Assembly (NCBI GenBank): GCA_014871385.1
Contig: CM026423.1
Coordinates: 15,854,467 to 15,918,466, forward strand
Reading direction: 5' to 3'
Source of the DNA: Ceratodon purpureus
Lineage: Eukaryota > Streptophyta > Bryopsida > Pseudoditrichales > Ditrichaceae
Length of the DNA: 64,000 nucleotides
Shown here: one piece after another, positions 9,388 to 47,146 of the stretch
Numbering within the stretch: position 1 is the stretch's first letter
Layout of the letters: every line of letters begins with the position of its first letter
Made by a program: the position numbers and the translations under genes
The notes under the pieces: model-generated
The model's database searches: none
Told to the model about the DNA's origin: nothing
What the model saw: only the letters and a program-made list of their open reading frames with translations

Positions 9388-9806
9388 TATTGAAGTACTG
9401 TAGAAGGCAAAACACTTTCACTGACTCGTACAGATCATTCGATACATTAAGCCAGATGCAAGTATGCCAAACAGACTATGCATTACACTGAAACACTCAC
9501 ACGTACAGAGCTCTGACTTACACAGAATCTTGGAGCATGTAACCAAGCTAACCCTATGCTTCCACAGATTCGTGTCAAGAGAGAGAGAGAATAACATTGT
9601 AACAGTTACTTATCCTACGCAGCTCCATGCTAACGGCTAGGATTATGTGGTGGGAACATCTTCTTGGGTCTTGACTTGTAATGAGTTTGTCTCTCGACAC
9701 TTTGTCTGCCAGAACCGTGAGTGAGGTAATTTGTCTGTGTAGTGGCAATCAGTTAACCAGTACCGTGGGTGTGGTAAGTTGTCGGGAGGGAGGGGTAACT
9801 CCAATA
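9388..9806 (-). repeat. Copia LTR (3' LTR relative to coding strand), 419 bp
   Basis: It begins TATTG and ends CAATA, giving 5-bp inverted ends. By eye it matches the other LTR at 32299-32717 over the full 419 bp with no difference noticed, which points to a recent insertion. Confidence 0.93.
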
Positions 9807-13426: not shown

Positions 13427-13436
13427 TTCCCATCAC
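13427..13436. repeat. 10-bp target-site duplication of the giant MULE, left copy
   Basis: TTCCCATCAC here is repeated exactly at 31121-31130. A duplication of 9-11 bp is the hallmark of Mutator-superfamily transposition. Keeping one copy restores the Copia reading frame. Confidence 0.93.
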
Positions 13437-13495
13437 GGGGAAAGTTCGTACGTGAGCGGAGAGCGTAGAGCGGAGAGCGGTGAGCGCAGAATGGA
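13437..13495 (+). repeat. Left terminal inverted repeat of the giant MULE
   Basis: It starts GGGGAAAGTTC. From GTACGTGAGCGG at 13448 it matches the reverse complement of the right end perfectly for 43 bp. The repeat is itself built from GAGCGGAGAGCG-like units. A subterminal motif, GACCCTATAACCGTGGAA (about 13540-13557), is also present inverted near 30913-30930. Confidence 0.93.
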
Positions 13496-14206
13496 GAGCA
13501 CAGAATTGAGAATTAGGAAAATTTTCAAAAGCAAAGTAGACCCTATAACCGTGGAAAATTACTAAATTAAGGCTAAATTTTGACACTTTTTTTAGAAAAA
13601 GAGTATATTACCGTGGAAATTAGAGATTATCTCTGGTAAGAATTTATTACGTTTGTTCTCTAAGATACAAATTAGGGCTGATGTCATGATGACGTCATGC
13701 ATATATTTTGTTATATTTCTCATGGATTTAGGCAAGATATAATGATCAGGCGTTAAGTTTTAGATCAAACAAATAATTCTTTCGTAGGATTATCTAAATG
13801 CACAAGGAAAAAACAAATTTGAAAGAACGTAAAGGAGGCAAGGTTTGAAAACTTCCTGGAATATTTCAAAATTCGTGTATAATATCTTAACTGCTGAAAC
13901 CAAGATATACCTTGTTAGAGTCCTTGTCTTCATCGAAGAGTACTCTCTCTTTGTAGGCAGCAAAGCATCTTCATTTGAGTGATACAAGTAGGAGATTTTC
14001 ATCATCAAACAACACTTGGTAAGCTGGGTTCCAGAGAAGGAGGTCACTCTTGGTTTCTTGAGCTTGTCTCTAGATGGCGTATTTGGATAGTGACACAGTC
14101 CTTGGCATGCTGTGCTGTATGCGAAGGTAGCGTAGGAGTTCGGGGATGTCAATCTGCAAGCTTGCCTGTAACGTTTTAAGACTACAAGAATTCAGTGTGT
14201 TGCGCG
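13496..14206. other. MULE left subterminal noncoding region
   Basis: AT-rich. It contains TGATGTCATGATGACGTCATG near 13680, with overlapping palindromes. A segment near 13850-13915 recurs in diverged form at 14730-14795 (TGGAATATTTCA, TTCGTGTA, GAAACCAAGAT), so the small ORF is flanked by a direct repeat. No gene is seen. Confidence 0.5.
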
Positions 14207-14578
14207 ATGCCGAAGGTGTGTAATGCGAGATCCAGGAGGACGAGAGCGGCTGTAGGTTTGCCCCCAAAGGCACCGGCGAGTTATGAGGAGCTGCGGCCGT
14301 GGCTGCTGGAGGTGGAGCGCGCTAGAGAACGAGGCATGGACCTGCCACCGTTTAGGCACATCGGAAGCCTCCATGTTGGTGAAGGTGAATGGCGTTGGAC
14401 AGTGCTTTGTACCAATGAGCTTCTCCGTATTATGGAGTTGTCCCTAATCCCGTATCCCTTGCTATCGAACGTCGATGAGAATCCAGTTGTTCAGCTGCCC
14501 GAAGTGATCATATCGGATGGCGAAACTTGCTGGTTTGATATGGACAAGAGTTGGACTGTATATCCTTCGAAGGATTAG
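14207..14578 (+). CDS. Small MULE accessory ORF, 123 residues, unknown
   Basis: This open frame from ATG 14207 has a basic N-terminus (MPKVCNARSRRTRAA) followed by a compact region with ASYEELRPWLLEVERARERG, GEWRWTVLCTNELLRIMELS and EVIISDGETCWFDMDKSW. The composition is typical of a small globular protein. It is single-exon as read, but an upstream exon cannot be excluded. It lies in the left arm of the giant MULE, upstream of the converging 3' end of the methyltransferase-like gene. I do not recognise a family. Its position fits an accessory gene of the element. Confidence 0.5.
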   Translation: MPKVCNARSRRTRAAVGLPPKAPASYEELRPWLLEVERARERGMDLPPFRHIGSLHVGEGEWRWTVLCTNELLRIMELSLIPYPLLSNVDENPVVQLPEVIISDGETCWFDMDKSWTVYPSKD

Positions 14579-15091
14579 TACTGTGAAGTCTAGTGGGGTG
14601 TTCGAATACATTACTTTAGATGTGGTACCTCATTGGATCTAGATACGAGTATTCCACCATGATGGTTTTAGATAATATAGATGATTCTAGGAATAAGAAA
14701 AGAAAAACCAACTAAAAGAAATGGTCTTAAAAGTCCATGGAATATTTCAGAGTTCGTGTACAATAATGGAGTAGCCGAAACCAAGATGTACACCAAGTGA
14801 AGAATAGGTAACATGGCTATGCAAATGTGGGATTTTGAATGAGTAAAATATAAATAACAGCACAATATTACACTTGAGCCTTTCTTTTGTAACATTTTAT
14901 TCTTCATATTATATTTTGAGCATTACAGTTGTGACATTTCATCCTTTACAAACACGGAGACAAATTGGACATGAGAATTATAACAAGTTTAGGTTCAGGG
15001 AAGTAGAATAGACGAAGGATTACCCAATGAACTCCAATTAAATCAAATCAAATCAAATGAAAACAACAATAGACCGAAGCCTCCTTCAACC
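14579..15091. other. Spacer between converging MULE genes
   Basis: AT-rich, 0.5 kb. It has the second copy of the diverged direct repeat at about 14730-14795 and an AATCAAATCAAATCAAATG microrepeat near 15040. It probably holds the 3' untranslated ends of both neighbours. Confidence 0.45.
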
Positions 15092-18000
15092 TCAGAACAT
15101 GCTACAGTCACTACTTTCACTCTCAGAACTAGATGACTCCGTATCTCCTTCTACCGCCTCGTCATCGACAAATTGAAGGGCCCTGGGATCAAAAGTAGTT
15201 GGCCGACTAGGAACATATGTAAGGGCTCCAGATTGAAACGCCTGTGCTAAGCCCTCTGCGTAGTCCGGAAGTATGAAAGGCTGAATCGGGCTGGAATGAA
15301 GACGCCACGATGGAGTGGACACAGCTCTTGGCACACGTGGCGGTGATGCTGAAACTACTCTGCAATAGAGAACCGATTGTGGTTAGATAGAGTACGTAGA
15401 GCTGGAAAGAGAAGTAATGATTGGATAATTTGAACAAAGAATAGAAGACTTACACCACTTATCAGGCCTTGGTCTCTTTGGAGGCGCTTCGCCTGCTGCT
15501 GCCGGCCTTGGATGTTTAGGAGGGCCCATGGCGGATGGTTTGAGAAGGGCGTTGAATATGGCTTCGTCCTCCTCAAAAGCGAGAATGTGGCGACCAGTAG
15601 CCTGGGCAGCCTTGATGGAGGCTCCTGAAACTCGGAGAGATACAAAGAAATGAGAAACTGTGGTAAAAACGAGAGGAATAATTCAGAAAAGATATGCATG
15701 AATAGTTACCTGTCCCAGCATTCCAATCAACAACTATGTCGCCGGGCTTCGACAGCTCCTCAATTATGCCCTGCATCATCTCGATGGATTTCTCCCTTGG
15801 GCCTCTCCACGGCACCTCCCCATTCATGAGCTGCGAATCCACATCGGTCAAGTTGAAAATGGCATCACTCTCGGTAATGTTGAGGAGCCCATGTATCAGG
15901 TCTTCCTTCTTCGTCTGGAAGGAGAAGGTACTGCCACTACGAACGTAGACGCGAATCCAGAATCGCATAGTCTGCAGTCAAGCAAAACTAGTGAGTAAAT
16001 TGAAGCGGAAGGGTTATCAGTAAGCGAAGAGAAGGGCATGTTCAGGAAAAGTACCAAGTTCTCGGGGTTCGTAGGAGAAGTGAGGCCGAGGACATTGACA
16101 CCCCACCAGTCCTTGAACAGCACGTATCCACCATTAGCAGCTTCGTCCTCGATATCCTTAGCCAGCTTCTGATCAGTGTTGTAGATGAGGCAGATAGCAC
16201 CATCTTTCTGCAGGAAATCATCTGCGAAATGGAAGATGTCGTACAAATAATCCTTGTAGCGAGAGTTCCAAGGCGGAATACTCGTGGGGGGAACGGAAAC
16301 GGATGGGACGGGAAGATTCTCAGGGATGTCGGCAATGATCAAGTCGACTCCCAGATGGTCCTCTTGTTTGCACCGGTCCCCAACTATGTTTTCGCGGCCT
16401 GCTCCAAACTTGAGGAAACAAGAAAGCAGAGTTAGTAACTACATAGCGAGTAGAGGTGGCAGAATCCAGTGAATGTCAAAATATAGGAACAAACCTTGCG
16501 AATGAAGTCTTGAGTCTTGATCCAATCCGGGTCGCCACCTTTTCTCTCCTGTCTCCTATTTCGCCGTAACATGGAATCCACAGAGGAGTTGAAGACGGAG
16601 ACATGTGTGGAAATCGAAGCTCCAGCGGAAGAAGTTGTTTGAGGATATAGTTTGGCCTTCCTCTGCTGAAGGAGACCTCTGGTGATCTCCGAAGCACTGA
16701 TCGATGAAGGAGCCGGTGAAGAAGCTGGAGAAGGGTTGGTAACGACAACACCCGGAGACGGATCTGGTGCCTTGTCAGCTGGCGCGGAAGACTCCGCACC
16801 AGTTTGCTGTGATGCCTCTGACTGAGAACGTAGAGATTTCAATCGCCTTCCTCTCCCTTTCTTCGGTGGAGGAGCAGAGGATTGATCTTCAGGGCTTCCA
16901 AAATCGTCTGCACCATCCTCTGTGTCCTCGACCACCACCGCACCCCCATCGTGTAGAGTCTTGACTTCGACCTCTGAATCAATCGTGAAACCACGAGAGC
17001 AATCAAGGTACCAGCATCCCTCAAGCAAGTGAGGAGCTTTGTACCTTTGCAGCTGCTGGGGAGAATAGATACACTGGTCCGAGGTTGTCTCCGTCCAAGA
17101 ACGGAAGTAGTTGGGTAGCTGCTGGACTGTGATGACCCCCTTCAAAACAAGCTCTCGCATGAAGTACCTAAGAGAAGAGATTTAGAAGGTTAGTAGCATA
17201 GAAAGCTCTAGCGAATTAGAATACACGAATGCGAAAAAGTAACGCAATATACCGGTAAATAACCCGCTTGACAACATCAGCGGTTCCAGGGAATTTAGCG
17301 AAGTCGGACTTCTTCTCAAAGGGCTTCTTTGCTCTCTTTCCAATGAACGAAGGGAAGGCCTTGTCCCAGAACATAATACGTGAACTCTCGACGTAATCGC
17401 CCGGCTGTTGGACATCAGGAAATGCCCTCCAGTCGATATCGAGGTTCTCCGACTTGAATATGTCCTCGACCTCGTTGACGACGGCCTCCTCCAACTGAAA
17501 TACAGAATTGAAATAAGTACCAATGAGAAAAGAATTCAGAAAGCATGTTGTCATTGGTAAGGCATTTTTCGAAACCATACCCCAGCCCAGAATGAAGCCC
17601 TGTTTAACCAAGGGTCAAAATCAGTATCCTTGAATCCTGGCGGTGGAAATCTGTAAGATAGTCTGGAACTCAGAGATGAGTTCCACCACCGCAGCCACCG
17701 AACCTTGTATTTGGGCTCAACGGCCGCCGGACAGATCTTCTGGAGCTTATCAAGGGACATTTCAGGTTTGGAGTTTAGACTGTAATGCCGATTGATCTGC
17801 CAGGAGCAGAGAAGTATTAGAAAATAGTATTCAGAACTTTGAATCAATTCCAAATTCTTAAATGATATTGAATGAAGTAGTTACCTCATTCAGGAAGTCG
17901 TCTCCGTTTTTGGGGTTTGCAATTGCCAAGTACTTGGTGAAGTCCTTATTCTTTATGGATTCCACCATTTTCTCAGACGCATCATTCATGATTTCCCAAA

Positions 18001-21000
18001 CCGCAGATGCAGTCTGTTCATCCGCCGGTGTCTTCTCCATGTAGGCATTAGCTGCTTCATCCGAGGCCACAGCAATTTCCCGCTGTAGAAGGATAACCAA
18101 TTTTTAGAAAATTCATAATTGGACGAAATTAATCTTTCAAAGTATGAGAGAAGATAGAACGAGCGAAGACGGAGAGGAGGTCAAACTTACTCGGTAGAGA
18201 AAGGCGATGAAAACTCGAGTAGTTAAGGGAAACCATGACGGGTTCGGCGGCTTGTTTTTCAAACAAGCTTCGTATTCTTGAGGGTTCAGGAGGTCCTTGA
18301 ACTCCTCCAGCTTCATCATTCCGAATGAGCGGATTCGAAACAATTTTGCTGGGAGATTACTCTTCACGTGGTCATTCTCGGTCGACCTGAATATCAAATT
18401 AGTAAATAAGTTGAAGAAATATTATAGAAAATGATTCCAAGTGGATAACATATACTTAAGTTTTTTGAACGTACCAGTTGATGTCGTGCATAGCGTGCAG
18501 GAGAATACCCACATGGCCACGAGGGTCAAGTACAATGCAATGCACAGAGATGTGCCAGGATGGGTCGTCCGCGTGATGCTTGTTGATGTGCCGGAGCCAA
18601 GCGGAGAGGCGATGATTACCCTCCCAGACATAGAACATCTTGTGCGAGAACTGCAGCAACTCCTCGTCCCCAGAGACCTCATCATCAAAGCGATCACTTG
18701 CGGCCCTCCATAAAGGGCTCCAAGTGGCCATGATCTCCGCCGTCACATTCTTCGTTTCCTCTTCGGTGTTGTACATGGAGATGTACATGACGCGGTCCCC
18801 ATCTCTATATCCCTTAACAAACTCTCGCTCCAAGTGTTGTACCCCCATTTCTCCCACTGGTCTAACCTTGGCCATTGGAATCATCCTGCATAAGGGCACC
18901 AGCATTCGAGACTTCTGCGACGGTTTGATCCTACAGTTGTTGATGACGGCGTTGGAGTCCAACTTGTATGTTATTCGATGCTGCAATTCCCCTTCCATAG
19001 CAGTCTTCAAGTCGATCGGGCAAGATGGTTTTGCCAACACATCTTGTGTTAGCGTGACCTGCGAAGAGGTGTTCGAATAAAGAGAGGAATCACAATCAGA
19101 GGAAGTCATGCAAAGAAGACAAGTATGTAAAAGAAAGTAACAATATATCTTCATACTGTCATTTCTTTTGTAACAAGTCAATCGTCATCTGCGATGGGAG
19201 GAACTATCTACGTGATGCTCGACTATAGTACTCCTTGGACTGTCTACAGTTCCAGTGACGGCGCCTCCTCCAAAACCGCCTCGTCTGCTGAACCGGGCAC
19301 GGCAGAATTGCCGGAAGCGCGAAGACCACATGTGCTGGCCTTCTTACTCTAATAGGCGAGGAAGGCGAGGGTGGAGACATCGGCGGTGAGCCCTGTGGAG
19401 GGGAGGTGGGCATGTAGCCCGGAGAGGTAGGCTCATACACTGGGGAGGTAGGCATGTACACGGGAGAAGTAGGCATGTACTGGGGAGAGTGGACCTCGAA
19501 AGGTCCACTATCTCCAAGTACAGGGTTGGCTACATCACAGATACAATAAGGCCGATCAAATGAATCCGAGAGATCGGAAACATTGATGACTGAAATGGGG
19601 GATGTGGCGGACATCTCAGGAGCATCTGAATATACCTAGTGTACATAAAATAATTTAAGGTTAAACTGCAGATCCAAAAATGAGAGAAACAACAACGCAG
19701 AGGTCGAGGACAAACTATTAGGATCAAAAGAATCATAGGTTTTCAGTAGAAAGTAAAAAAGTACCTCGGTTTCTGCGGGAGTCGGATCTTGACCTTGGCT
19801 CTCCATGTTGTCCTCAGAGGATTCCTAAGTCACAAGGAACGTTTATGATGTTACATCAAACATGGAAGAACAATCTTGTAACTGTTAAGTTAAAAGAAAA
19901 TTGAAATGAAAAACTAAACAAATAAAAAACCATCACGCATTCACTCTCATGGAGCCCCAAACAACAACAGCCGAGAATTTGACCAAGTCACTAACAGAAG
20001 CCCTTGCAACCAATCCTCCCCCTCGAAGACAGTAGGCAAGTACGGCACTTAATTTTAAATATTTTTAAAAAAAAAAAAACCACAAAAATTAGTAAGAGCC
20101 GCATAGGTTAGCAATGCTAACATGTCAAAATTAAAACATGTCCAGCCTACTGTCGTCACAGACAGTAGGCTGGGAGGGTTGTTTATTTTAAAATATATTA
20201 GAAAAAAAAAACAATATCAATAAATAAGCAGCCCCAAGGAATCGATTATGGACCATCAATTATTTTTAATTTAAAATTTAAAAAGCATAGCAGCCCTCAA
20301 GCATATCAGCTAGCATCATGCATATCAGCCCCCATGCATATCAGCCCCCATGCATATCAGCCCCCATGCATATCAGCCACAAGCATAGCAGCCCACAAGC
20401 ATAGCAGCATTCAAGCAAATTAAAAAAATTTAATAAATAAATTAGTAAGAGCCGCATAGGTTAGCAATGCTAACATGTCAAAATTAAAACATGTCCAGCC
20501 TACTGTCGTCACAGACAGTAGGCTGGGAGGGTTCTTTATTTTAAAATATATTAGTAAGAAAATACCAATATCAATAAATAAGCAGCTCCAAGGAATCGAT
20601 TATGGACCATCAATTAATTTAAATTTAAAATTAAAAAAGCATAGCAGCCCTCAACATATCAGCTAGCATCATGCATATCAGCCCCCATGCATATCAGCCC
20701 CCATGCATATCAGCCCGCAAGCATATCAGCCCACAAGCATAGCAGCATTCAAGCAAATTAAAAAAATTTATAACAGAAATTAGTAAGAGCCGCATAGGTT
20801 AGCAATGCTAACAAGTCAAAATTAAAACATGTCCAGCCTACTGTCGTCACAGACAGTAGGCTGGGAGGGTTCTTTATTTTAAAATATATTAGTAAGAAAA
20901 TACCAATATCAATAAATAAGCAGCTCCAAGGAATCGATTATGGACCATCAATTAATTTAAATTTAAAATTTAAAAAGCATACCAGCCCTCAAGCATATCA

Positions 21001-24000
21001 GCTAGCATCATGCATATCAGCCCCCATGCATATCAGCCCCCATGCATATCAGCCCCCATGCATATCAGCCCGCAAGCATATCAGCCCACAAGCATAGCAG
21101 CATTCAAGCAAATTAAAAAAATTTAATACAGAAATTAGTAAGAGCCGCATAGGTTAGCAATGCTAAGAAGTCAAAATTAAAACATGTCCAGCCTACTGTC
21201 GTCACAGACAGTAGGCTGGGAGGGTTCTTTATTTTAAAATATATTAGTAAGAAAATACCAATATCAATAAATAAGCAGCTCCAAGGAATCGATTATGGAC
21301 CATCAATTAAATCCGAATGAGCTGGATTCAAAATTAAAACATGTCCAGCCTACTGTCGTCACAGACAGTAGGCTGGGAGGGTTCTTTATTTTAAAATATA
21401 TTAGTAAGAAAAAACCAATATCAATAAATAAGCAGCTCCAAGGAATCCATTATGGACCATCAATTAAATCCGAATGAGCTAGATTCAAAATTAAAACATG
21501 TCCAGCCTACTGTCGTCACAGACAGTAGGCTGGGAGGGTTCTTTATTTTAAAATATATTAGTAAGAAAATACCAATATCAATAAATAAGCAGCTCCAAGG
21601 AATCCATTATGGACCATCAATTAATTTAAATTTAAAATTTAAAAAGCATACCAGCCCTCAAGCATATCAGCTAGCATCATGCATATCAGCCCCCATGCAT
21701 ATCAGCCCCCATGCATATCAGCCCGCAAGCATATCAGCCCACAAGCATAGCAGCATTCAAGCAAATTAAAAAAATTTAATACAGAAATTAGTAAGAGCCG
21801 CATAGGTTAGCAATGCTAACAAGTCAAAATTAAAACATGTCCAGCCTACTGTCGTCACAGACAGTAGGCTGGGAGGGTTCTTTATTTTAAAATATATTAG
21901 TAAGAAAATACCAATATCAATAAATAAGCAGCTCCAAGGAATCGATTATGGACCATCAATTAATTTAAATTTAAAATTTAAAAAGCATACCAGCCCTCAA
22001 GCATATCAGCTAGCATCATGCATATCAGCCCCCATGCTTATCAGCCCCCATGCATATCAGCCCGCAAGCATATCAGCCCACAAGCATAGCAGCATTCAAG
22101 CAAATTAAAAAAATTTAATACAGAAATTAGTAAGAGCCGCATAGGTTAGCAATGCTAACAAGTCAAAATTAAAACATGTCCAGCCTACTGTCGTCACAGA
22201 CAGTAGGCTGGGAGGGTTCTTTATTTTAAAATATATTAGTAAGAAAATACCAATATCAATAAATAAGCAGCTCCAAGGAATCGATTATGGACCATCAATT
22301 AATTTAAATTTAAAATTAAAAAAGCATAGCAGCCCTCAAGCATATCAGCTAGCATCATGCATATCAGCCCCCATGCATATCAGCCCCCATGCATATCAGC
22401 CCGCAAGCATATCAGCCCACAAGCATAGCAGCATTCAAGCAAATTAAAAAAATTTAATACAGAAATTAGTAAGAGCCGCATAGGTTAGCAATGCTAACAA
22501 GTCAAAATTAAAACATGTCCAGCCTACTGTCGTCACAGACAGTAGGCTGGGAGGGTTCTTTATTTTAAAATATATTAGTAAGAAAATACCAATATCAATA
22601 AATAAGCAGCTCCAAGGAATCCATTATGGACCATCAATTAATTTAAATTTAAAATTAAAAAAGCATAGCAGCCCTCAACATATCAGCTAGCATCATTCAT
22701 ATCAGCCCCCATGCATATCAGCCCCCGTGCATATCAGCCCGCAAGCATATCAGCCCACAAGCATAGCAGCATTCAAGCAAATTAAAAAAATTCAATACAG
22801 AAATTAGTAAGAGCCGCATAGGTTAGCAATGCTAACAAGTCAAAATTAAAACATGTCCAGCCTACTGTCGTCACAGACAGTAGGCTGGGAGGGTTCTTTA
22901 TTTTAAAATATTTGAGTAAACCCACAGCACTACGAGTCACTCGCAGCAACAAACCCATTGGCATCGTGCTGAGGTATCCCCCCCCACCGGCACCACTTGA
23001 GGTAACAGCCCCGGGACTTACACTTACGCTTAGCTTGCTCCCGGGTGGCCACTCACTGCGGATGGACAGTCCCACTTGGCCGCGAGCCACCGAGAACAAA
23101 CCAGCCCAGACACAAACAAACACTCACGGGGAAACATGAAACCAACATCACGTAACCCCCAATCGTTGATGGCAAAATGCCGAGGCAATGATATTATTGA
23201 ATGTGTGTGACCCTTTTAATTGATCACAACTGTGCTATTACAGTTGAGTGCGCATCGTCGTGCCCAATTGACCACCCTATCAACAACCCTGTGCAAGGTT
23301 AGAGCAAGGTGGGGGCAACGGAGCAAACAACCCGCCACAACTCCCCAAATCCGAACCCGAAATCTCTTCTCATTAAAAACCTTGAAGCCACAACCAAATC
23401 TTCGCAAACCAACTACCCAAAACTGAATCTGTTCGAACAGCAATCATTACTCATGCGGTACAGTCGAGTACAGCCCACAATACCATTGCCCGAATTCAAA
23501 CCTCAATCATTCACATTAAAAATTTCGTTCAAATGCAGACAATCCACAATCCAAAAACCAAGCAACCAGGCAAACCACGCAGCCACAACCAGCTGCAACA
23601 TAGCGAAACCCAACTCCGAAATCTCTCATCCGCAACCCAACTACCCACAATCAAGTTCCAACAATCCCCAACATCAAATCCCGACAGAACACCCACATCA
23701 ACATTGAGTACCATAAAGTCGCAACCCGCAACCACATATGCACACCCCAAACACCGAATCCCGAAACCCAACCTCAAAGTCAAACGTGAATAAAGAAGAT
23801 CCGTACTGAAGAATATCCGTACACTCTGAACGTACAATCGAGTAACCCCAACCTTCAAATGCGTCACCATCACAAGACTTGCTGCACACTACGGATACAT
23901 ACCTCTTCTCCATCTTCTGGGTCTTCTTCCGCGTCGTCCCCGTCCGTCGTCACCTGCTCGTCCGTGGCATTCCCAACCTGCCTGACCTGATCCTCTCCTC

Positions 24001-24869
24001 CTCCAAGCTCCTCCGCGGCCATCTCCTCATCACCCTGCCCTGCAGCCCCAAGGCCGACCTGCTCATCTTCCTCTCTCCCCATCTGCTCGTTTCTTGCTGC
24101 CATTCTCTCGCCCCCTTCCCCTGCTTCGAAAATCGCACTCCTTGCTCGCCTCGCAATGACTCGCAACTGGTCCAGTTCGCTCCCCGCCCCTGGTAGTGAT
24201 CCTCTACTCAAGTCTCCGAGATTCCTCATCCTTGGAGTACTCTTCGCATATAATTAAAATGTTTACATCCATCAGTTCTTCGGCCTTCATGTGTTCTAAA
24301 GAAGAACATTCGGAAATTTGCATATTACAAGGTAAATATCGTAAATAGTAAAACATCTTTTTATTATAATACCGCATTAATATTAACAAGCAATAGAATC
24401 TAGAAGGTAATGTCATACTAACCTCATCGGAGTTCAAATGCAGATTAGATTGAGAATCCGTCTCCCCCGTCAAAGAGTCATTGAATGCGATAGACGGCTG
24501 CGGTGACTCTACTCTTTGACTACAATTAAAAACTAATTCTTCCGTCATGGCCTCACTTTGAACTCCTCTTAAGATTATCTGCTGTCCCTGCTCCTGATTC
24601 TCAACGGCGGTATTCTCTATACTCTCTTCTTCCTCCTCCACAATAGAGTCTAGAATGAGTTTACGAATACTACAGAACTTTAAGGCTACAGGTAAACCTG
24701 ATCCTCTCGTTTTCACTGGAGCACTCACATGGTCACGTTGAAATTCTACCTTCTTACGTGACTCTCTCCTCTTCCTCGCTCTTCTATCCGTAAAATCTGT
24801 AACACCTCGTTTTCGTCTAGGTTTAGGAGTGACATAAGTGGAGGGAGATGGCCCTTCACTCTGCTTCAT
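15092..24869 (-). CDS. ParB-like / beta-class methyltransferase-like protein with CTD-type heptads (14 exons)
   Basis: Exons on the minus strand are 24423-24869, 23903-24241, 19765-19824, 19348-19635, 18475-19058, 18191-18386, 17885-18082, 17581-17796, 17253-17494, 16495-17167, 16055-16408, 15710-15971, 15454-15624 and 15092-15348. All junctions are GT-AG, phases agree, and the total is 4,287 nt (about 1,428 residues). The N-terminus is basic (PKPRRKRG, RRARKRRESRKK) and then acidic. Four heptads Y-x-P-T-S-P-x occur at residues 335-362. A ParB-like segment (about 430-573) has EGNHRLSAW at 524-532. A Pro/Ser-rich linker contains KKGRGRRLK. The C-terminus has LIIADIPEN (about 1104-1112) at the place of motif IV (DPPY), then GDIVVDWNAGTGASIKAA with GRHILAFEED (about 1277-1306) as motif I. 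That order is beta-class. ParB-methylase fusions are known in phage and bacteria. DIPE instead of DPPY makes catalysis uncertain. Confidence 0.8.
19396..19479 (-). other. RNA polymerase II CTD-like heptads in the methyltransferase-like protein
   Basis: Four consecutive heptads begin at Tyr 335, 342, 349 and 356. Each reads Y-(M/E)-P-T-S-P-(V/G/P), matching the Pol II consensus Y1-S2-P3-T4-S5-P6-S7 except at positions 2 and 7. The Tyr, Thr4 and Ser5 phosphorylation sites are retained. Confidence 0.85.
19825..23902 (-). other. Intron 2 of the methyltransferase-like gene (4.1 kb) housing a repeat array
   Basis: The donor is GAG|GTATGT at 23902 and the acceptor CTTAG|GAATCC at 19824, both phase 0. 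The array occupies about 20040-22912. The remaining 22913-23902 is Cys/Ala/Pro-codon-like CA-rich DNA with no convincing coding. Every other intron in this gene is under about 350 bp. Confidence 0.7.
20040..22912. repeat. Tandem array with ten perfect hairpins
   Basis: Units of about 340 bp, with two shortened units near 21300-21500, each carry CCAGCCTACTGTC-GTCACA-GACAGTAGGCTGG (13-bp arms, 6-nt loop). They also contain GTTAGC-AAT-GCTAAC and a sub-array of CATGCATATCAGCCCC-like 16-mers. Hairpins start near 20142, 20495, 20833, 21188, 21345, 21502, 21841, 22180, 22519 and 22857. The palindrome is invariant while the surrounding bases vary, which suggests selection or recent homogenisation. 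Confidence 0.92.
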
Positions 24870-25410
24870 GTGTCTAACCAAAGGACTGACTCTCTCACAA
24901 AAAGACTCTCTGAAAAACTTCCTGCCCGCTTAAATACCTATAAGGAACAACTATTTGGATACAACCCTAAGTTCATATAGCATCTTAACAGTATAATCAT
25001 TTTATACACTCTTTATTTTAAGAATATTAATAATAGTTCTATTCTTAAGTGTAGTTTAAAATATTAAGCTTTAAATATATAGGCGAAATCCAAGCACACT
25101 CTAAATTAAAAGATTAGAATCAAGCACTTGAAAGCATGCTCCTCTTTATATTCACTGATTTAAATGTAGAATTTTAAAGACGGCGCAATCCAATCTTACC
25201 AAACTTTATAACTAATAGAATCTGCGCCACGATTGAAATTATTAAAGTACAGTTATTAATATCTTACCTGCTATACTTCGGCCAGCAAAAAGTCACATTC
25301 CAAATAGTTAGAGCCGTCCCTCTTAAATCGCACATTCGTTACGTAACAGAATGAATCATTCTCCACCTGTTCACACGGACATTCCGACCTGAATATAATG
25401 ATCAACAGCG
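24870..25410. promoter_or_regulatory. Bidirectional promoter region of the MULE
   Basis: About 540 bp, AT-rich, separate the divergent start codons of the methyltransferase-like and transposase genes. TATA-like runs (TTTAAATATATAGG near 25070) are visible. The shared spacer implies that both genes could be expressed or silenced together. Confidence 0.5.
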
Positions 25411-28400
25411 ATGCATCATTCCTCTCACTTTGCTCTTGCAACATTGCTTCGCCAGTACAGTCACACTTCTCTCTTCTTGACTGAGGTTCTTGCGATCATG
25501 GGGATGGTCTGTCTGTATGCCCAAGGCATGGGCATCCCTCTTAGGTTTCGCGTAGATGACGATGGTCTAGCTACAGTTTCCTCTCTTCGCCTGAGTGTCA
25601 GATTCCATTTCCGTGAGGATTCGATCAGTATAGAGGAGGAGATGTTTGATGACGTTACTATGGAGGTTACCCACACCCTTGGGCAACCTTCAGTGAGAGA
25701 TGAAAACAATATGTTACAGTGGAGACTCCTCCCTGGATCCTATAGAGTCTATGGTCTTACTGATTCTCTGATGGCTGCATCCACTGAGATCCTCACCCCC
25801 CGTCGCTCTTCTACTTGCACAATTCAGACTCCCTTACCTCGTGATGTCAAAGTCAAAGTCGAGCCTGGTACCGAGACTTCAGATGTAGAGAAACCTCCTC
25901 CGACCGTCATATCTCTCTCCTCTGATGACGAAGTCAGTCCCGTCAAGTTGGTGCCTAAGGTCCACGCTGATGCTCCTCCTTCCAATGTGTCTCCTCCATT
26001 GTCCCAGGTCACAGTTAGCATTGTTCCGCTCCTTAAAGAGATTGCTAAGACGCGTGGGTCCAAAAACGTTTTGAAGAAGATAGACTATTCCACTATTAGA
26101 CACGAGAGAGTTGAGTACTTGCCTGCGAAGTTTGATGGTCCGGTTCTTTTTGAGTTGCCCCCAGCTGCTGCAGGATCCTCTAAGCTCGCCGCCAAGTCAA
26201 TGCAGGGAATGGACAAACGATACGACGGACACTTGTGGACCAAGACCATCACAACAAACATCAAAAACGACTTCGGACTCTCTTTTCGAAGTTCCACCTG
26301 CGTCGGATGGCTGCGGTGCAGCAACCAGGAGTGTGACTTCCTCAAGCGTGTTCCCAAGATCTTCGAAGTCAACGAGACTGAGTTCGAAGGCTGTACCCTG
26401 CAAGCTTTTGTCATGGACCAGCCTCCTCCATCTGACTCCACGCTAGTGTGCAAGGTATGTAAAGAACCTCCATCATGTGTAGCTACATGCGAGGCTAAGA
26501 TTTATTACGTTGTGGGCAAACCGAATCAGACTAGAGCGTGTATTCACATAGGAACACATCATCATCCAGTGAAAGTAGGAGACTACAGAGACTCTAAAGC
26601 AGAGATTAGTAGCTTAATAGAAGAGCAGGTAGAGATGAACAACAAAGCAACAAAGAGCGCCGTTGTCCTAGAGGCGAGCAAACTCCTCATCGGGAGCTAC
26701 CTCCTACAGCCCGAGGATGCTCCACCGAGGAAACTGACGATGGAGGAGCTGGTTCCTGTTCTGGATCGATGCAAAGACATGGCGTCACCAAACATCCGCA
26801 ACAAAGTCGCCACCTTCAAAAAATTCGTAAGGTACGGAATCATGGACGGTATCACCAAGCTCCGTGGTAACAGTCTCTGGGCGTATGTCCAGGAGAATAG
26901 GTTTCCTGGTCAGGGAGCGATGCGTGACAAAGTCTTCGTCTTCAAGATGTCGGAGGTCGGGCCGGGAAGTGGTGTCGACTTGGTCAGCCGTATGCAAGCT
27001 GGTGGCGACTTGGAGAACGCATGGATCATGTTCGACCATGTCAAACGCGTCAAAGACTGGTCGACGATGGCGTGCCATGTGTACGACGCCACCTACTGCC
27101 GCGTGATGACAATCGCCACTTGCGACATGCAGTCCGAGGACACGGACGCCCAGCTCGTCTTCTGGAAAAACCTGAACCTGGTCATGGAGATCAATGGCGT
27201 TGCAGCGCCGAACTTCAAGGGGTTCATGGCGGATAACGCACAGGCGAATTGGAATGCAGTGCGAATCCTTTACGGCAATGGCAACAAAGAGGACCCAATG
27301 GAGGACCGGGAGAGGTCGTGCTTGTTCCACTGGACTCAGAACATGGTGGCGTATACGCAGAAGCACTTCCCCGAAGAACTCTGGGAACAGCACAAGAAGA
27401 TGTGCACTCAGTACAAGAATGCGACCAGCATGGCAGAGGCGGAAACTCTGTACCACGCGTTGCGAGCATGGTGGGCATCCACCGGGGTCGTTGGCGAGAG
27501 CGGGCTCATCAAACTCGATCAGTGGCTGTCATTCTGGCACCACCGCTTCCGCCAGTGGGGGGGATTCATGACCGAGGTATTATCTCTGGACTCTGTTTTC
27601 ATATTCTTGATACTGGTTTCCTATCCCTAACCTACAAAACTGTAATTGGTGAATCTAACGGCATGTACTGTCAAATCTGCAGAAATTCACGAAAGAAGAA
27701 CTCACAGAGATGCCCACCTGTAACCTCGCCGAAACGGTTCACAACAAGTGGCTCCAAGCTTCAGGAAACAACGGGAGCGACCTGTACGTTGCTACCGTGG
27801 ACGATTTCGTTCGGGCATTTCTACAGGTTGTCAACTACTACCAGTTCCTCAAAGGTGACGTCGGCGGAACAGGACCATCCAAGAAGGAACTCAGGCTCCG
27901 GATGGCTGAACGCAACGCGAAGAAATGGGGAAATCCTACAGTGCTCGACAAGCCCATGCTCGATATGCCAGGCGCGGATGAGTTCTGCACTCGTCAGCCT
28001 ATCATGCCTGGAGCGGAAGTCTTCGGTTCACAGAAGCGAAAAGCCGACGTCCTTATCGGAGCTGACGAGGAGTCTCATCGCCCGGATAAGACCAACTTCT
28101 CACGACCAAGAGGCCCAAGACGTGCCGTCAGGGCTCGCCCTATGCAGATGCCCGTCATTGTGGAAGACGACTCCGAACACGACACCGACGTACAATGTAC
28201 CCAACCTCCTGCCCAGGAAGTTGATTCCCCTTTACCTTCACCTGTGAACAAGGGCGGCATTCGCCATGTCAACGCGGTTGAAGAAACCAAGGTGGACGTG
28301 AAGGAGTGGCACATTTCGAGACTTCACAAACTTTCTGCAAAGTGCTGCTGGGCCCAAAGAGCTGAAACGAAGAAGAAGTGCACTGAGAGAATCGTCAGGG

Positions 28401-29176
28401 GGCCCCTTTGCACAGCTGCACCGACCTACACTGGGCTGTGGACTAACTATCGCAGGAACACAGTCGAGAAGACTGAGTTCTTCTTCTGCTCCGACGATAT
28501 TGAGCGTTGCGTGAAAGGCTCTAAGCGCAAGTGGGTAGCCCACTACTCAAAGGACCAGGAATTCCCCTCCATTCCAGAGGTCTGGCCAGTGAAACTAGGT
28601 ACTAATCTAAAACTGACTGAGATTCTTGCCCTCGAAGCAGCAGGCTTTCAACTTCCGCCTAAGAAGCCGGTCTCCCCAAGACGCCTCTTCTCCTCTGCCC
28701 CGCCCCCTGCAAATCTCAGCTCGGTGCCAGTCCCTGCAGACGCTGACCGCTACCCAGGCAAGAGAGACGGCAAGATGGTGAAGCGCACTGCCACTCGTCC
28801 CAATCCGGCGCAGCGACTATCCATGGGCTCCTCCGAGTCTCTCAAAGCGCGCCTCCGTTCCGTCACCATGATACCTGAGCCGGGCCACGGTTGCATCATT
28901 GGGCTGGATTCGGGCGTCGCTCCTCACATCACACGTTACCAGATTACCATCAGTTCTTACCCTGGTTGCACTTGCCCAGCATTCAAGAAGACGATGACTA
29001 CGTTCAAAGGCAGGACTCAGTTCACGTATTGTAAGCACCTTTACTACATACTCTTGAAGGTCTGCAACCGTGATCCCGAAGCCGAGCTTTTCATCCATGC
29101 GCCTACCTTTAGCTTCAACGAGGTCAAGCTTCTCCTAGAGAGTGGAATCTTGCGTCACCCCTTGGCGAAGAAGTAG
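25411..29176 (+). CDS. Mutator-like transposase with GCM/FLYWCH-like and SWIM zinc fingers
   Basis: Two exons, 25411-27576 and 27683-29176, join at ACCGAG|GTATTA...CTGCAG|AAATTC in phase 0 (1,219 residues). A variable N-terminal region is followed by a zinc-finger-like block. That block has Cys303 and Cys308, more Cys around CKVCKEPPSC, and His383-385 in GTHHHPV. The MULE-type catalytic core has Asp559 (VYDATY), Asp608 (GFMADNAQANW) and the C-x-x-H of CLFHWTQNM (637-640), with Glu739 in CNLAETVHNKW as the likely third acidic residue. A C-terminal SWIM finger has C1151-x-C1153 and C1172-x-H1174 (CTCPAF ... YCKHLYY). SWIM fingers are usual in MULE transposases. No stop or frameshift is seen, so the gene appears intact. 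The start codon choice is uncertain, since an in-frame Met lies 29 codons downstream. Confidence 0.85.
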
Positions 29177-29430
29177 GTAGCCCTCCTACTTTAGAACTGC
29201 CATTTCCACAATGGCCATTTGTCACGTAGTGAATGACTTTAGTAATATACCATGTACTAAGTCTGCTATTCAGAAGCTGTATTGACTTTTTCATTATATT
29301 AAAGGCTTTGTCGTTCACATTGATTGCATTCTATTTCAATACATTCAATCTTGAAGAAGTGCACTATATACCTCGTATCCTCTGACATGTACCCTTTATT
29401 ACACCAAACATATACTTGTTATTAGATGTC

Positions 29431-29883
29431 CTAATCTTCGAACCTAACACGTTTAGGGTTGCCCACTACACTATCAGCAGGGCTCCGAACCTCTGACTCT
29501 ACTACAGGACAAACTACATTCGCTTTCACTTTCGTTCCCACGCTTGGAGCGTGTCCTTGGTATGATCGTTTCAGCAATGGCCCACCTCCCCGCCTCCGAT
29601 TCACTGATTCCCTGGAATAGGTTCCCCTTGGGATCTTTCCAACCTTGGAGTATGCATGAGGTTGCAAAGGCACATCTGCGTCCTCCTCCAGCACTCTGAT
29701 ATCATCCGAATTTTCTGAACGTGGAGGGTCAGCTCTAACATCCGGTTGCACGTCAACAGCCGTTGTTAAAGGACGCCCTTGACTGCTGGCCATCACCTCT
29801 TCTTCGTCCTCCACCTCAACATATGGTTGAAATGGACAAACATCGTCAGCAAGTGAAACAACAATATCTCTGACGTCTTCCAT
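29431..29883 (-). CDS. Small acidic MULE accessory ORF, 150 residues
   Basis: It opens at ATG 29881-29883 (MEDVRDIVVSLADD) and ends NPKRVRFED. It has an acidic middle (YVEVEDEEEVM, ENSDDIRVLEEDAD) and a basic, Arg/Gly-rich second half (SRESVNRRRGGGPLLKRS), with no recognisable domain. It converges on the transposase gene, 255 bp apart, inside the right arm of the MULE. It could be an accessory protein or a terminal exon. I do not recognise the family. Confidence 0.5.
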   Translation of the reverse strand: MEDVRDIVVSLADDVCPFQPYVEVEDEEEVMASSQGRPLTTAVDVQPDVRADPPRSENSDDIRVLEEDADVPLQPHAYSKVGKIPRGTYSRESVNRRRGGGPLLKRSYQGHAPSVGTKVKANVVCPVVESEVRSPADSVVGNPKRVRFED

Positions 29884-30180
29884 AACTGCTGTTCCGCAGT
29901 ACGGAAAAGAGCTTCACAAAACACCAACAGAAAAGAGGAAGAGACATTCCATAATCCTAACTTAAATATCCGTGAAGGAGATGCTTGGCGCCCTTGAAAA
30001 TCGGCTATTCATTCATTTGAAAGTTGCATCTTCCTCAACTGAATGGAAAAGGATGAGGGTTGAGCAGAAGTCATTTAGCTTTTAAAATTTAAAAATAATA
30101 AAAAAAAATTAAAAAAATTATAAAAGCAAAAAGGAAAAAAGGCTAAAATAAATATTAAGGTTGAAAATAATATGAAGGCG
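29884..30180. other. MULE right arm, noncoding
   Basis: The stretch between the small acidic ORF and the low-complexity tract is AT-rich with no gene seen. It probably contains that ORF's promoter. Confidence 0.4.
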
Positions 30181-30600
30181 ACTAAGAAAATGAAAGAGAA
30201 AATAAAATGAAAGACAAAATAAAATGAATGACAAAATAAAATGAATGAGAAAATAAAATGAATGAGAAAATAAAATGAATGAGACAATAAAATGAATGAG
30301 ACAATAAAATGAAAGAGAGAATAAAATGAAAGACAAAATAAAATGAAAGAGAAAATAAAATGAAAAGGAAAATAAAATGAAAGAGAAAATAAAATGAAAA
30401 GGAAAATAAAATGAAAGAGAAATTATAATGAAGGAGAGAAGAAAATGAAAGAGAGAATAAAATGAAAGAGAAAATAAAATGAAAGAGCGAATAAAATGAA
30501 AGAGAAAATATAAGGAACTAGAAAATAAAATGAAAGAAAAAATAAAATGAAAGAGAGAATAAAATGAAAGAGAAAAGAAAATGAAAGAGAATTAAAGGAA
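30181..30600. repeat. AAAATAAAATGAAAGAG low-complexity array
   Basis: About 420 bp of imperfect 16-17-bp units (AAAATAAAATGAAAGAG and variants) lie in tandem in the right arm of the MULE. The minus-strand translations full of Phe/Ile/Ser are artefacts of this repeat. Confidence 0.9.
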
Positions 30601-31065
30601 AGGAAAGATAGATAGAGTAATGGAAGTTAAAATGAAGAATAAAAGAAATAAACCATGTAGACCATGGCGGATGATTTCTAACAATGTTAAGAAATTGTTA
30701 CGATATTAAATGTTACTTTATCCCTCTTAAGAGCTTTAATACCAATACATTTTATGCGGTAATTTGCATATAAATTTGAGGAGATAAAGGGAATTAATGT
30801 ATGCCTAAACTAGTTAGAAGGAGCTGGAGCATAGTAATTAGTGCACGTTAAAAAATTAATCATCAAAAAAAGAGAAAACGAACTACAAATTCAATGAAAA
30901 CACTGTAATTATTCCACGGTTATAGGGTCAATAAAATTACTAAAATTAGTATTTTTCTAAAAATATACTGAGAATATTCGAATCTTCTAATTTTATATTT
31001 TATTTTTAGTAAAAAAAGTGCTATTTTTAGGTCCTGTCCCCCACTCTGTGCTCTCCGCTCTCCAA
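30601..31065. other. MULE right subterminal region
   Basis: AT-rich. It includes the inverted copy of the subterminal motif (TTCCACGGTTATAGGGTC, about 30913-30930) shared with the left end, plus a short poly-A-flanked GCACTTTTTTTA-like motif also found on the left. Confidence 0.6.
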
Positions 31066-31120
31066 ATCTGCGCTCACCGCTCTCCGCTCTACGCTCTCCG
31101 CTCACGTACAAGCTACGTCC
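31066..31120 (-). repeat. Right terminal inverted repeat of the giant MULE
   Basis: Its reverse complement starts GGACGTAGCTTGTACGTGAG and matches the left end perfectly for 43 bp from GTACGTGAGCGG. The GAGCGGAGAGC units continue inward on this side with an extra copy. Confidence 0.93.
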
Positions 31121-31130
31121 TTCCCATCAC
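31121..31130. repeat. 10-bp target-site duplication of the giant MULE, right copy
   Basis: TTCCCATCAC is identical to 13427-13436. Confidence 0.93.
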
Positions 31131-32298: not shown

Positions 32299-32717
32299 TA
32301 TTGAAGTACTGTAGAAGGCAAAACACTTTCACTGACTCGTACAGATCATTCGATACATTAAGCCAGATGCAAGTATGCCAAACAGACTATGCATTACACT
32401 GAAACACTCACACGTACAGAGCTCTGACTTACACAGAATCTTGGAGCATGTAACCAAGCTAACCCTATGCTTCCACAGATTCGTGTCAAGAGAGAGAGAG
32501 AATAACATTGTAACAGTTACTTATCCTACGCAGCTCCATGCTAACGGCTAGGATTATGTGGTGGGAACATCTTCTTGGGTCTTGACTTGTAATGAGTTTG
32601 TCTCTCGACACTTTGTCTGCCAGAACCGTGAGTGAGGTAATTTGTCTGTGTAGTGGCAATCAGTTAACCAGTACCGTGGGTGTGGTAAGTTGTCGGGAGG
32701 GAGGGGTAACTCCAATA
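32299..32717 (-). repeat. Copia LTR (5' LTR relative to coding strand), 419 bp
   Basis: Same length and ends (TATTG...CAATA) as 9388-9806, and no mismatch noticed by eye. It is followed by the TATAA duplication at 32718-32722. Confidence 0.93.
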
Positions 32718-33499: not shown

Positions 33500-35194
33500 C
33501 TATGGCATCTCTGTCAGCAGAATGCTCTCCATCTTGGCGATGGGGGGAGAGCACAATAAAGTGTACCACAAAGTGCAACATGTGATCACTAGGAAGTGAA
33601 TATGAAGTGTGCTGTTTTTTATTGCTCAAAGCTGATTTTGAGCATTTTGGTGTAGTTTTTGAGCATTTTAGTCACTTTTTAAGGTGTCACAAGGTATCTT
33701 ATAGGCATCTCCATAAAAAAAACATCTTCAATTGAAACTTAATTTGACCGCTAGTTCTAAATCATGAAAATAAACTTTTCCAAAGTCTTAATTTCTTCAT
33801 TTGGGGCCCTCTATTGTCTTTAGAGGATGTTTTTTCCAATTTAAAAAACAATGTTCGGTGAAAAAAACCTCACAAAAAGTTTCGTCGAAAAGAGCTCCCT
33901 GAAAACGTCTCAACGAAACTTTTCGGCTGTACAAACTTCCAAAGGAATTGCTTAGGCCCATTTTTGAAACCGCAATTCACAATCGGAGGGTACAGCGCAG
34001 TCAAAAGTGATTTCTAACATTTGTGCACTCTTTTTTGTCCACTTCTTCAAATGACTGCATTCACTTTGGATCACTTGCCATGACTCGTAAGGCTTCGTAA
34101 AAGGCACATATCGGTTCCAAAATTTCATAGACTCAAGATGACCAAGTCTATTTTCTATACCCAAAGCCCCTTCCAACATATCATCAAATTATATGTCACT
34201 TTTCTTAGTGTTTACAACAATGGCTGAAATTGGCAATGAGCTGAGCACTTTTGTGGTACACTTTATTGTGCTTCCCCCCGATGTTGATTTCGAAAATTTC
34301 AACTGAGGGAAAGTCACAAAAATCGTCGTCAATTGGAATGACACAGAATAGCATGTCTTTGCTAACTAAAAGGTGCGATGTGGGGGCCAATGGTATATCG
34401 ATACCTGCAAGATCGGAAACCTCCCCTGTCTCCTTATCGTAAGAAACAATCCCTCCACGAGAACCTTTCTCGGCGATGCAATAGTGTTGGTTTCTGAAGA
34501 TGGTCAGAGTGTCCCACCATACCTTATAAATGGGGTAGTTTACTGGGGGATTCAATGGTTTGTAGAGAGTCTGCCTCCAATTGCCAATCTTGGATTCATA
34601 AACAAAAATTGAATGTGGCTGAGAGTAACCACTCACTAAATGTATATTGACAACAAAGATCTCATACTCCATTGAGACCCTATCAGTATACATCATTGTC
34701 ACACGATCATGAGTTCCGCTACTCACTACAAGGTGTGGAATCTGCTTGATAGTCTTCAGAACAGGATTGTACACGAAGTAAGTTGAAATATATGTTTTGT
34801 AGCACATACACTTCATGCAGAAGAGCCCTCCAGCACTTGCCAGCAAAGAGGGTCCATTTTGGCCCAATGGTATAAGTCCTTGCTGTTGTAAATAATTTGT
34901 TAGGAACTCGTCGTTGAAAGTGAGGAACCTCCTCCTCGCCACATCCAATACATACCAAATATTTCGGTATATCCAACTCCGTTGCGCAACAATGAGCAGA
35001 TACTCTTCCGGAGATACGTTTGACGCTTGTGCATGCCTAAAAGCATGGCTAGTTATGAGTCTATTCCAGCTCTTAGACACTGTTCTAAATCGGCACACTG
35101 AGGCAATCGGAAGAAACGTAAAGACTCTCTCTAGGATATCTGTAGGCAAATTACTCCACATACTCTTTATTTCCCATGTCGCCGACTCCTCCAT
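33500..35194 (-). CDS. F-box protein gene with a transposon inserted near its 3' end
   Basis: It starts at ATG 35192-35194. Residues about 15-55 form an F-box (NLPTDILERVFTFLPIASVCRFRTVSKSWNRLI), the Skp1-binding module of SCF ubiquitin ligases. A plant-type F-box-associated beta-propeller-like region follows, with FVYNPVLKTIKQIPHLV, MEYEIFVVNIH, IFVYESKIGNWRQ and CVIPIDDDF. The original frame runs to 34280 and, when the 738-bp insert and one GAT copy are skipped, continues at 33541 for 13 more codons to TAG at 33500-33502. With the insert the frame instead reads into transposon sequence and stops near 34205, replacing the last residues with about 25 foreign ones. The F-box and most of the substrate domain stay intact, so it may still function. 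Confidence 0.8.
33539..33541. repeat. 3-bp target duplication (GAT), left copy
   Basis: GAT flanks both ends of the 738-bp element (also 34280-34282). Removal with one copy restores the F-box reading frame. Confidence 0.7.
33542..34279. mobile_element. 738-bp non-autonomous TIR element inside the F-box gene
   Basis: The termini are inverted repeats of about 34 bp (GGGGGGA..GCACAATAAAGTGTACCACAAA) with a 3-bp GAT duplication. The interior holds a 75-residue minus-strand frame (33952-34179, with GHLESMKFWNRYVPF) of unknown origin, and no transposase is recognised. A 3-bp duplication fits PIF/Harbinger- or CACTA-type superfamilies. The GC-rich first bases and lack of CACTA favour the former. 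Confidence 0.75.
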
Positions 35195-46892: not shown

Positions 46893-47146
46893 AAAAATGC
46901 CTTGCATAGGTAGCCGCAGACGCTTGGATCATTTTTTGGCACAAATTGTACCAATAAAGAGCAATAGTCTAGAATACTATGCAACAAAGATAATTTGTCC
47001 TAGAATGGAGAGTAGATCGAATGCATTGAAGATTTCCAATCTTAATCATCAAAGTTTGAAGCGTCATATATATCTCAAAATTTAGCACTTCAAAATTCTC
47101 CATTTTCATTGTCAGTTCAAGTAAAAATAAATAGGATAACAAATTA

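Follow-up and report, generated by a model that had tools for sequence, protein, structure and literature searches.

A Mutator-like transposon family of the moss Ceratodon purpureus with a ParB-methyltransferase-like gene and palindrome arrays, a candidate self-recognition system

The closest described counterparts of the element reported here are VANDAL21 and VANDAL6 of Arabidopsis, Mutator-type plant elements that carry VANC as cargo (PMC5735166, PMC10398659). For VANC on VANDAL elements both the binding of motifs and a loss of methylation have been described (PMC5735166, PMC10398659), and VANC21 binds a nine-base motif that is tandemly repeated in the non-coding DNA of VANDAL21 (PMC5735166). 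Here we describe a Mutator-like element of 17,684 bp from the moss Ceratodon purpureus, which occupies positions 13437 to 31120 of a stretch of 64,000 nucleotides (assembly GCA_014871385.1, contig CM026423.1, 15,854,467 to 15,918,466; hereafter the window, to which all coordinates refer). We observe a family of such elements with five genes, arrays with an unchanging palindrome, selection on a gene for a protein with a ParB half and a methyltransferase (MTase)-like part, and co-variation between the palindrome's spacer and the ParB half. By analogy with the systems above, we consider it rather probable that this family, recently active and of the autonomous type, carries its own DNA-recognition (self-recognition) system, in which the protein would bind the array. 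The array with its palindrome, absent from the initial annotation of the window, is the best functional clue.

Like the VANDAL elements, the moss element is of the Mutator type and has a cargo; in both, a short motif is repeated in fast-diverging non-coding arrays and enriched in the element, and the recogniser has variable and conserved parts. The moss protein, in contrast, is a fusion of a ParB fold and a methyltransferase fold, and its function is inferred, whereas that of VANC has been proven. The moss site is a palindrome of 24 bp with fixed arms, whereas the VANC21 motif comprises nine bases in one orientation and VANC6 targets other motifs. Homology among VANC proteins is of the DUF1985 type, and Pfam scans of the five products of the moss element gave no such match.

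Sulfiredoxin is the commonest eukaryotic member of the ParB-CTPase fold, and in phages and prophages this fold occurs fused to an N6_N4_Mtase domain, likewise on mobile elements (PMC12704722). The moss gene differs from the phage fusions in that it is spliced and resides on a DNA transposon, and in its degenerate motif IV, its long middle part and its heptads resembling the C-terminal domain (CTD) of RNA polymerase II. With the bacterial ParB-parS system the element shares the ParB fold and the clustered palindromic sites; however, none of the five products gave a ParA-like match in the family scans, for which reason partition by ParB was dropped, and the moss site is unlike the parS sequence. 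Retrotransposons with a DNMT gene (PMC5890265) and fungal transposons with TET/JBP genes (PMC12730594) are, like the moss element, mobile elements with a gene of the DNA-modification type; their enzyme folds and element classes differ from it, and the excerpts describe no recognition array. Lanisha, finally, is a cut-and-paste DNA transposon like the moss element, but it is CACTA-like, with a C(2)C motif, mostly CA..TG ends and target site duplications (TSDs) of 2-5 bp (PMC12730594). Membership in that group was dropped for the moss element in view of its TSDs of 10 bp, its C(2)H motif and its GGGG start. Some of the authors of Lanisha (Maumus, McDaniel, Carey 2020) are also authors of the Ceratodon genome preprint (PMC8000587). 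Our literature search, outside which lay Repbase and the Ceratodon genome paper, returned neither a Mutator element with a ParB or methyltransferase gene nor this moss family; the element may be listed in either of those two sources. Phage ParB-MTase fusions and transposons with epigenetic cargo are known, but that search showed no earlier report in which a ParB-MTase cargo is combined with a recognition array.

The features that bear on recognition are, in the window:

20082..22919, no strand: internal tandem array with units of 339, 355 and 157 bp and 10 exact palindromes CCAGCCTACTGTC-GTCACA-GACAGTAGGCTGG
15092..19806, minus strand: ParB-MTase-like gene, 12 exons, 1163 amino acids; introns all GT-AG, single open frame
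19806-19765, 19635-19348, 19058-18475, 18386-18191, 18082-17885, 17796-17581, minus strand: exons 1-6 of this gene
17494-17253, 17167-16495, 16408-16055, 15971-15710, 15624-15454, 15357-15092, minus strand: exons 7-12
19396..19479, minus strand: four heptads, YMPTSPV YMPTSPV YEPTSPG YMPTSPP, like the RNA polymerase II CTD repeat
18475..19058, minus strand: predicted ParB/sulfiredoxin-fold exon (VWEGNHRLSAW), from 64 homologues and an AlphaFold model searched with Foldseek
15454..16408, minus strand: permuted N6/N4 DNA methyltransferase-fold domain with a degenerate motif IV (DIPE) and motif I DWNAGTG, from Pfam, PHROGs and an alignment with a phage enzyme

Besides the element in the window, ten further elements were read. 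A tandem array lies between the ParB-MTase gene and a gene termed D in each of them, and the palindrome CCTACTGTC-N6-GACAGTAGG (24 bp, arranged 9-6-9) is present in 11 of the 11 arrays. Ten elements contain 3 to 19 exact palindromes each, 113 in total, and C1b has a run of about 15 kb. The spacing between palindromes is 339, 355 or 157 bp in the window, 211 bp in C7a, 211 or 137 bp in C3a, mostly 190 or 210 bp in C12a, about 200 bp in C8a and 128 bp in C1b. Among the array consensuses of seven of the ten copies (C10a, C6a and C6b, nearly identical to the window, being omitted) the 18 arm positions agree in 21 of 21 pairs, whereas the flanks agree at only 30-69%. When the palindromes were masked in six of the 11 elements (C1b being represented by 1.3 kb), 12 of the 15 pairs of arrays were without a match below E 0.001, and the remaining three gave short matches of 32-46 bp (best E 4e-6). 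The genome that was searched (362.5 Mb in 151 contigs) contains 3328 exact palindromes, against 0.0035 expected from random sequence with the base composition of the window, and none for the reversed-letter control; those placed in elements are the 113 of the ten copies and the listed ones within C1b. A search of viral contigs returned one contig with a single site. The terminal repeats contain no exact arm, and lone half-sites outside the arrays number 0-2 per copy. One of these, at 20028-20036, lies about 0.2 kb upstream of the start codon of the ParB-MTase gene and recurs in three other copies with the same (A) type of ParB half, where self-regulation is possible.

The spacer between the arms varies, and in each of the 11 elements its class tracks the ParB half. 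An A-type ParB half is encoded by the element in the window and by C10a, C6a, C6b, C8a and C1b, and a B-type half by C1a, C12a, C7a, C7b and C3a. With the A-type the spacer is GTCACA or GGCACA in either orientation; C8a has GTCACA mainly in the other orientation, and C1b has GGCACA with some GGCAGA. With the B-type it is GTTGAC/GTCAAC, apart from one site each in C12a and C7a, which have 28 sites between them; the 32 sites in C7b, C3a and C1a show no exception. The copies are mosaics. B-type ParB halves are only 78-79% identical to that of the window, whereas the MTase parts of the same copies are 94-95% and the transposase parts 95-99% identical; C8a has the reversed pattern, with 90% in the ParB half and 71% in the MTase part, and the left part of C1b is 96% like the window. 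Gene D, the other neighbour of the array, does not track the spacer: that of C7a is 96% like the window's although the spacer differs, and the gene D copies of C8a and C7b are 97% alike although these two elements differ in spacer. The spacer is likewise independent of the 3' part of the transposase gene and of the right end, where C7b and C3a group with the window, and the MTase domain groups the copies otherwise than the spacer does.

In the ParB-MTase protein the heptads lie near the N-terminus and are followed by the ParB/sulfiredoxin-fold exon, a long middle part and the permuted MTase domain. Its exon structure is kept in ten copies, and its frame is without an internal stop in nine of these ten; exon 6, for which a frameshift had been considered and then rejected, is open in phase. 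Between the window and C1a, which represent the two main types, the ratio of non-synonymous to synonymous divergence (dN/dS) of the whole gene is 0.20 (0.073/0.365); by domain it ranges over 0.13-0.34 in diverged pairs, with 0.13-0.17 for the diverged ParB halves. The gene is under purifying selection. With the whole protein as query no homologue at E 0.001 was found among the 8000 best candidates, which we attribute to its 12 exons and to the unspliced predictions held in the databases. The ParB exon queried alone gave 64 homologues, 32 of which were aligned with the window's sequence; viral contigs yielded no relative of either query. The AlphaFold model of the exon has a mean pLDDT (confidence score) of 84, and Foldseek ranks 1-31 are Srx, ParB, Noc, SbnI or PadC chains (E 0.045-1.8; best structural similarity, TM score normalized to the target, 0.58), suggesting the ParB/sulfiredoxin fold. 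The heptads, YxPTSPx, match Pfam RNA_pol_Rpb1_R at E 0.024, below its cut-off. Their codons in the window vary synonymously where the amino acids match, and an in-frame step of 21 bp gives C6a, C8a and the B-type copies a fifth heptad; in C7b the last heptad is degenerate. The heptads may imitate the tail of RNA polymerase II.

The methyltransferase-fold domain matches Pfam N6_N4_Mtase at E 4e-9, above the cut-off, PHROGs families down to 1e-10 and DpnA in the PDB at E 0.002. In the alignment with a phage DNA methylase VDLIIADIPENLPV falls on VDLILTDPPYNLGV, i.e. DIPE stands where the phage enzyme has DPPY. Motif IV of N6/N4 DNA methyltransferases has the consensus [DNS]PP[YFW]. None of the 11 elements conforms to it: ten read DIPE and the diverged C8a reads DVPE. 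The GTG of motif I is kept in nine of ten copies, C1a having GTW. Given a degenerate motif IV in a gene that purifying selection maintains, the protein is unlikely to methylate; judging from its sequence, selection appears to preserve a form of it from which methylation of the usual kind is not expected.

The element that carries these parts has the following ends and transposase:

13437..31120, no strand: whole Mutator-like element, from its terminal inverted repeats, exact 10-bp TSD, the restored frame of the Copia element in which it lies, and ten further elements with both ends read
13427..13436, no strand: left TSD TTCCCATCAC, exact 10 bp
31121..31130, no strand: right TSD TTCCCATCAC, exact 10 bp
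13443..13490, plus strand: core of the left terminal inverted repeat, 48 nt, 96% complementary to the right end
31067..31114, minus strand: core of the right terminal inverted repeat, pairing with 13443..13490
13540..13554, plus strand: left subterminal 15-mer ACCCTATAACCGTGG, with an inverted twin at the right end
30914..30928, minus strand: right subterminal 15-mer ACCCTATAACCGTGG, inverted, twin of that at the left end
25498..29176, plus strand: transposase, exons 25498 (or 25411)-27576 and 27683-29176, stop-free frame through one intron

The initial annotation had drawn the same boundaries, and its exact duplication, its inverted termini (96% over 48 nt) and its shared subterminal motifs, to which further subterminal matches between the two ends can be added, are all found. 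Its description of an intact Mutator-like transposon holds at the sequence level for what is a large, multicopy element. It had suggested a search for other copies with the same genes and duplications of 9-11 bp, and these exist: TSDs of exactly 10 bp flank all 11 elements for which both ends were read. Its ParB/methylase-like cargo does belong to the element; of further genes, however, it counted three, where four accompany the transposase. As to the "full DDE/SWIM transposase", the open frame through one intron was confirmed; in the putative DDE-type domain the two D residues could be placed, and a candidate SWIM-like finger (CTC...YCKH) was read by eye in the translation, without a Pfam match.

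The transposase consists of a zinc-finger region, the putative DDE-type domain, a C(2)H motif and the candidate C-terminal SWIM-like finger. Among 41 aligned sequences (40 of 41 relatives, P0001 being omitted, and the window's own) D579 is invariant and D530 at least 90% conserved, and C608 and H611, which form the C(2)H motif after the second D, are invariant. The fold is of the Mutator/IS256 kind. No Mutator family of Pfam was matched above its cut-off, one of 41 members reaching Transposase_mut at E 0.034; a new superfamily, which the silence of Pfam had suggested, was set aside, and the element is placed in the Mutator-like (MULE) superfamily by its TSD, C(2)H motif and IS256-like fold. 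Viral contigs contained no relative of the transposase. Its dN/dS between the window and C1a is 0.15. The start at 25498 is preferred over that at 25411 because a frameshift in C7b falls upstream of 25498 and none occurs from there on; for the same reason that frameshift was dropped as a defect of the gene.

The 43-mer at the left end (13437-13479) has 619 matches in the genome at up to three mismatches (307 and 312 on the two strands), a number that does not equal 619 whole elements, as some matches lie close together (e.g. C3:3483030 and 3483591), and that does not include the right ends of ten copies, which differ from the 43-mer by 5-6. A transposase core of 60 bp has 562 matches (281 and 281), and the reversed controls of both queries have none. 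With the 564-bp left end as query, the best 40 of 1583 candidates were scored and gave at least 42 matching stretches, including the window's own; 41 are 96-100% identical and one 87%. The pairing of ends with transposases took in 83 of the 619 left-end and 79 of the 562 transposase matches (exact, on C1-C4, among those listed): for 44 of these 83 left ends an exact transposase core is listed 7-40 kb inward on the expected strand, against 2 and 5 in the outward controls. Of the ten further elements nine were read whole (16.5-18.0 kb), and C1b was read via its two ends; the latter is a 29.4-kb member of the family (C1:2460060-2489469) with an internal array of 128-bp units about 15 kb long.

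Copies of the ParB exon were located on the contig C6 (110.5 Mb, 30% of the genome, probably a sex chromosome) in 19 of the best 40 scored, a share that is possibly biased, the scored set being ranked by likeness. The genome of C. purpureus has been described as 360 Mb in size, with U and V chromosomes of more than 100 Mb each, about 30% of the genome (PMC8000587). In another source, the transposase relative P0033 and the ParB-exon relative P0068 each come from a contig of 674,632 bases, an equal length that hints at linkage of the two in that genome as well.

The remaining three genes, like the ParB-MTase gene, are conserved in ten aligned copies:

14207..14578, plus strand: gene E, 123 amino acids, open in 10 of 10 copies and nearly identical
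24420..24869, minus strand: first exon of gene D (MKQSEGPSPSTYVTPKPRR...), frame kept from the ATG in 10 of 10 copies
29431..29883, minus strand: gene C, 150 amino acids, open from the ATG in 10 of 10 copies

In four comparisons dN/dS is 0-0.15 for gene E and 0.30-0.38 for gene C. Several copies have stops upstream of the ATG of gene D, whose product reaches C2-set_2 at E 0.006, below the cut-off; scans of the three products against Pfam and PHROGs gave no convincing family. Inside the right end (30163-30591) there are 25 copies of an AT-rich 17-bp repeat, a stretch less alike between copies than the neighbouring genes (identity 0.74-0.80 in C1a, C12a, C7a and C8a). The element was inserted into a Copia element (Retrotran_gag_2), whose reading frame is open again once the transposon and one TTCCCATCAC are taken out. 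The long terminal repeats of this Copia element (9388-9806 and 32299-32717) show no difference in 419 bp; the insertion is therefore young, the transposon being younger than an already young retrotransposon. Elsewhere in the window a 749-bp unit is repeated four times in tandem (43893-46896, 99% alike), and there are two plant-type host genes, encoding an F-box protein with an At3g26010-like propeller (34205-35212, minus strand) and a DUF688 protein (57519-59231, plus strand).

Several observations weigh against a self-recognition system on an autonomous-type element. The array adjoins the 5' part of the ParB-MTase gene, and linkage alone could thus tie the spacer to the ParB half; with no more than two clearly distinct ParB types, few independent events underlie the pairing. 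Single matches to the ParB fold are weak (best Foldseek E 0.045, none below 0.001). The ParB-MTase gene of C12a has one internal stop, and the start is ATG in six of ten copies and CTG in the other four (C1a, C12a, C7a and C7b); in these the first exon is doubtful, the frame being otherwise kept, and a non-AUG start, another first exon or decay may be involved. The transposase has a stop in three of ten copies, and the matched stretch of C1b, which is not among these ten, also contains one. Finally, 39 of the 83 left ends lack a listed exact transposase match 7-40 kb inward, and many copies may accordingly be partial or diverged.

Self-recognition could work as follows. The ParB half, probably as a dimer, would bind the palindromes, as their symmetry and the pairing suggest, and many sites in a row would concentrate the protein on the element. 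The MTase-fold half, which lacks the catalytic motif, might serve in sensing the cofactor S-adenosylmethionine (AdoMet) or in interaction with a partner rather than as a methylase, and the heptads might attract transcription factors; both roles are speculative. The bound protein would keep the genes of the element open against host silencing and so let the element spread. By analogy with VANC, protection from silencing is the most likely outcome. The initial annotation had proposed that the cargo marks or unmarks the DNA of the element: marking by methylation is at odds with a DIPE or DVPE motif in 11 of 11 elements of a gene under purifying selection, whereas unmarking is close to the anti-silencing function that we prefer. 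As a tentative elaboration, the system may resemble ParB-parS, the protein with its dead MTase loading on the clustered palindromes, spreading over the element and blocking silencing, and the ParB half and the array being exchanged as one specificity cassette.

The main rival, which we regard as possible, is that the protein simply regulates transcription of the genes on its element, with the array as an operator or enhancer that precedes the ParB-MTase gene. The position of the array 5' of this gene in the 11 elements read would suit such a role, as would the lone half-site upstream of the ATG in four A-type copies and the heptads near the N-terminus; up to 15 kb of array, however, exceeds the needs of an operator, and in practice this explanation overlaps with protection from silencing. 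Transposase and palindromes occur in one element, and several internal sites are used by some transposases. That the palindromes are transposase sites acting as an internal enhancer of transposition is nevertheless quite improbable, given terminal repeats without an exact arm, the scarcity of lone half-sites, and C7b and C3a, which combine an A-type 3' part of the transposase (0.987-0.993) with the B spacer.

It is also unlikely that the arrays are a selfish satellite, in which the palindrome is kept without a protein partner as a hairpin that promotes repeat turnover. Their turnover is fast, the number of sites varies from 3 to 20 among ten elements and the run in C1b reaches about 15 kb, and the inverted arms are near-perfect. 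A hairpin, however, needs complementarity and not the same 18 letters, which are fixed while the units around them are replaced, and the reversed-letter control is zero. An active MTase domain, modifying the element's DNA at adenine or cytosine-N4, perhaps at the palindromes, as a mark, has in its favour the matches to DNA methyltransferases in Pfam, PHROGs and the PDB, the glycine-rich motif I intact in nine of ten copies and the phage ParB-N6/N4 methyltransferase fusions (PMC12704722); in view of DIPE against the DPPY of the phage enzyme, and of a copy with 67.5% domain identity that still reads D-x-P-E (DVPE), we hold it to be improbable.

If self-recognition by the ParB-MTase protein is true, sequence-specific self-recognition would have arisen in plant Mutator-like elements on two or more occasions, from proteins with no relation to each other, and a ParB/methylase fusion of bacterial type would have been converted into a device for recognition in a eukaryote. 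A single genome holds the site, the protein and natural variants by the hundred, and the way in which a transposon evades silencing while leaving its host untouched would become directly testable in moss.

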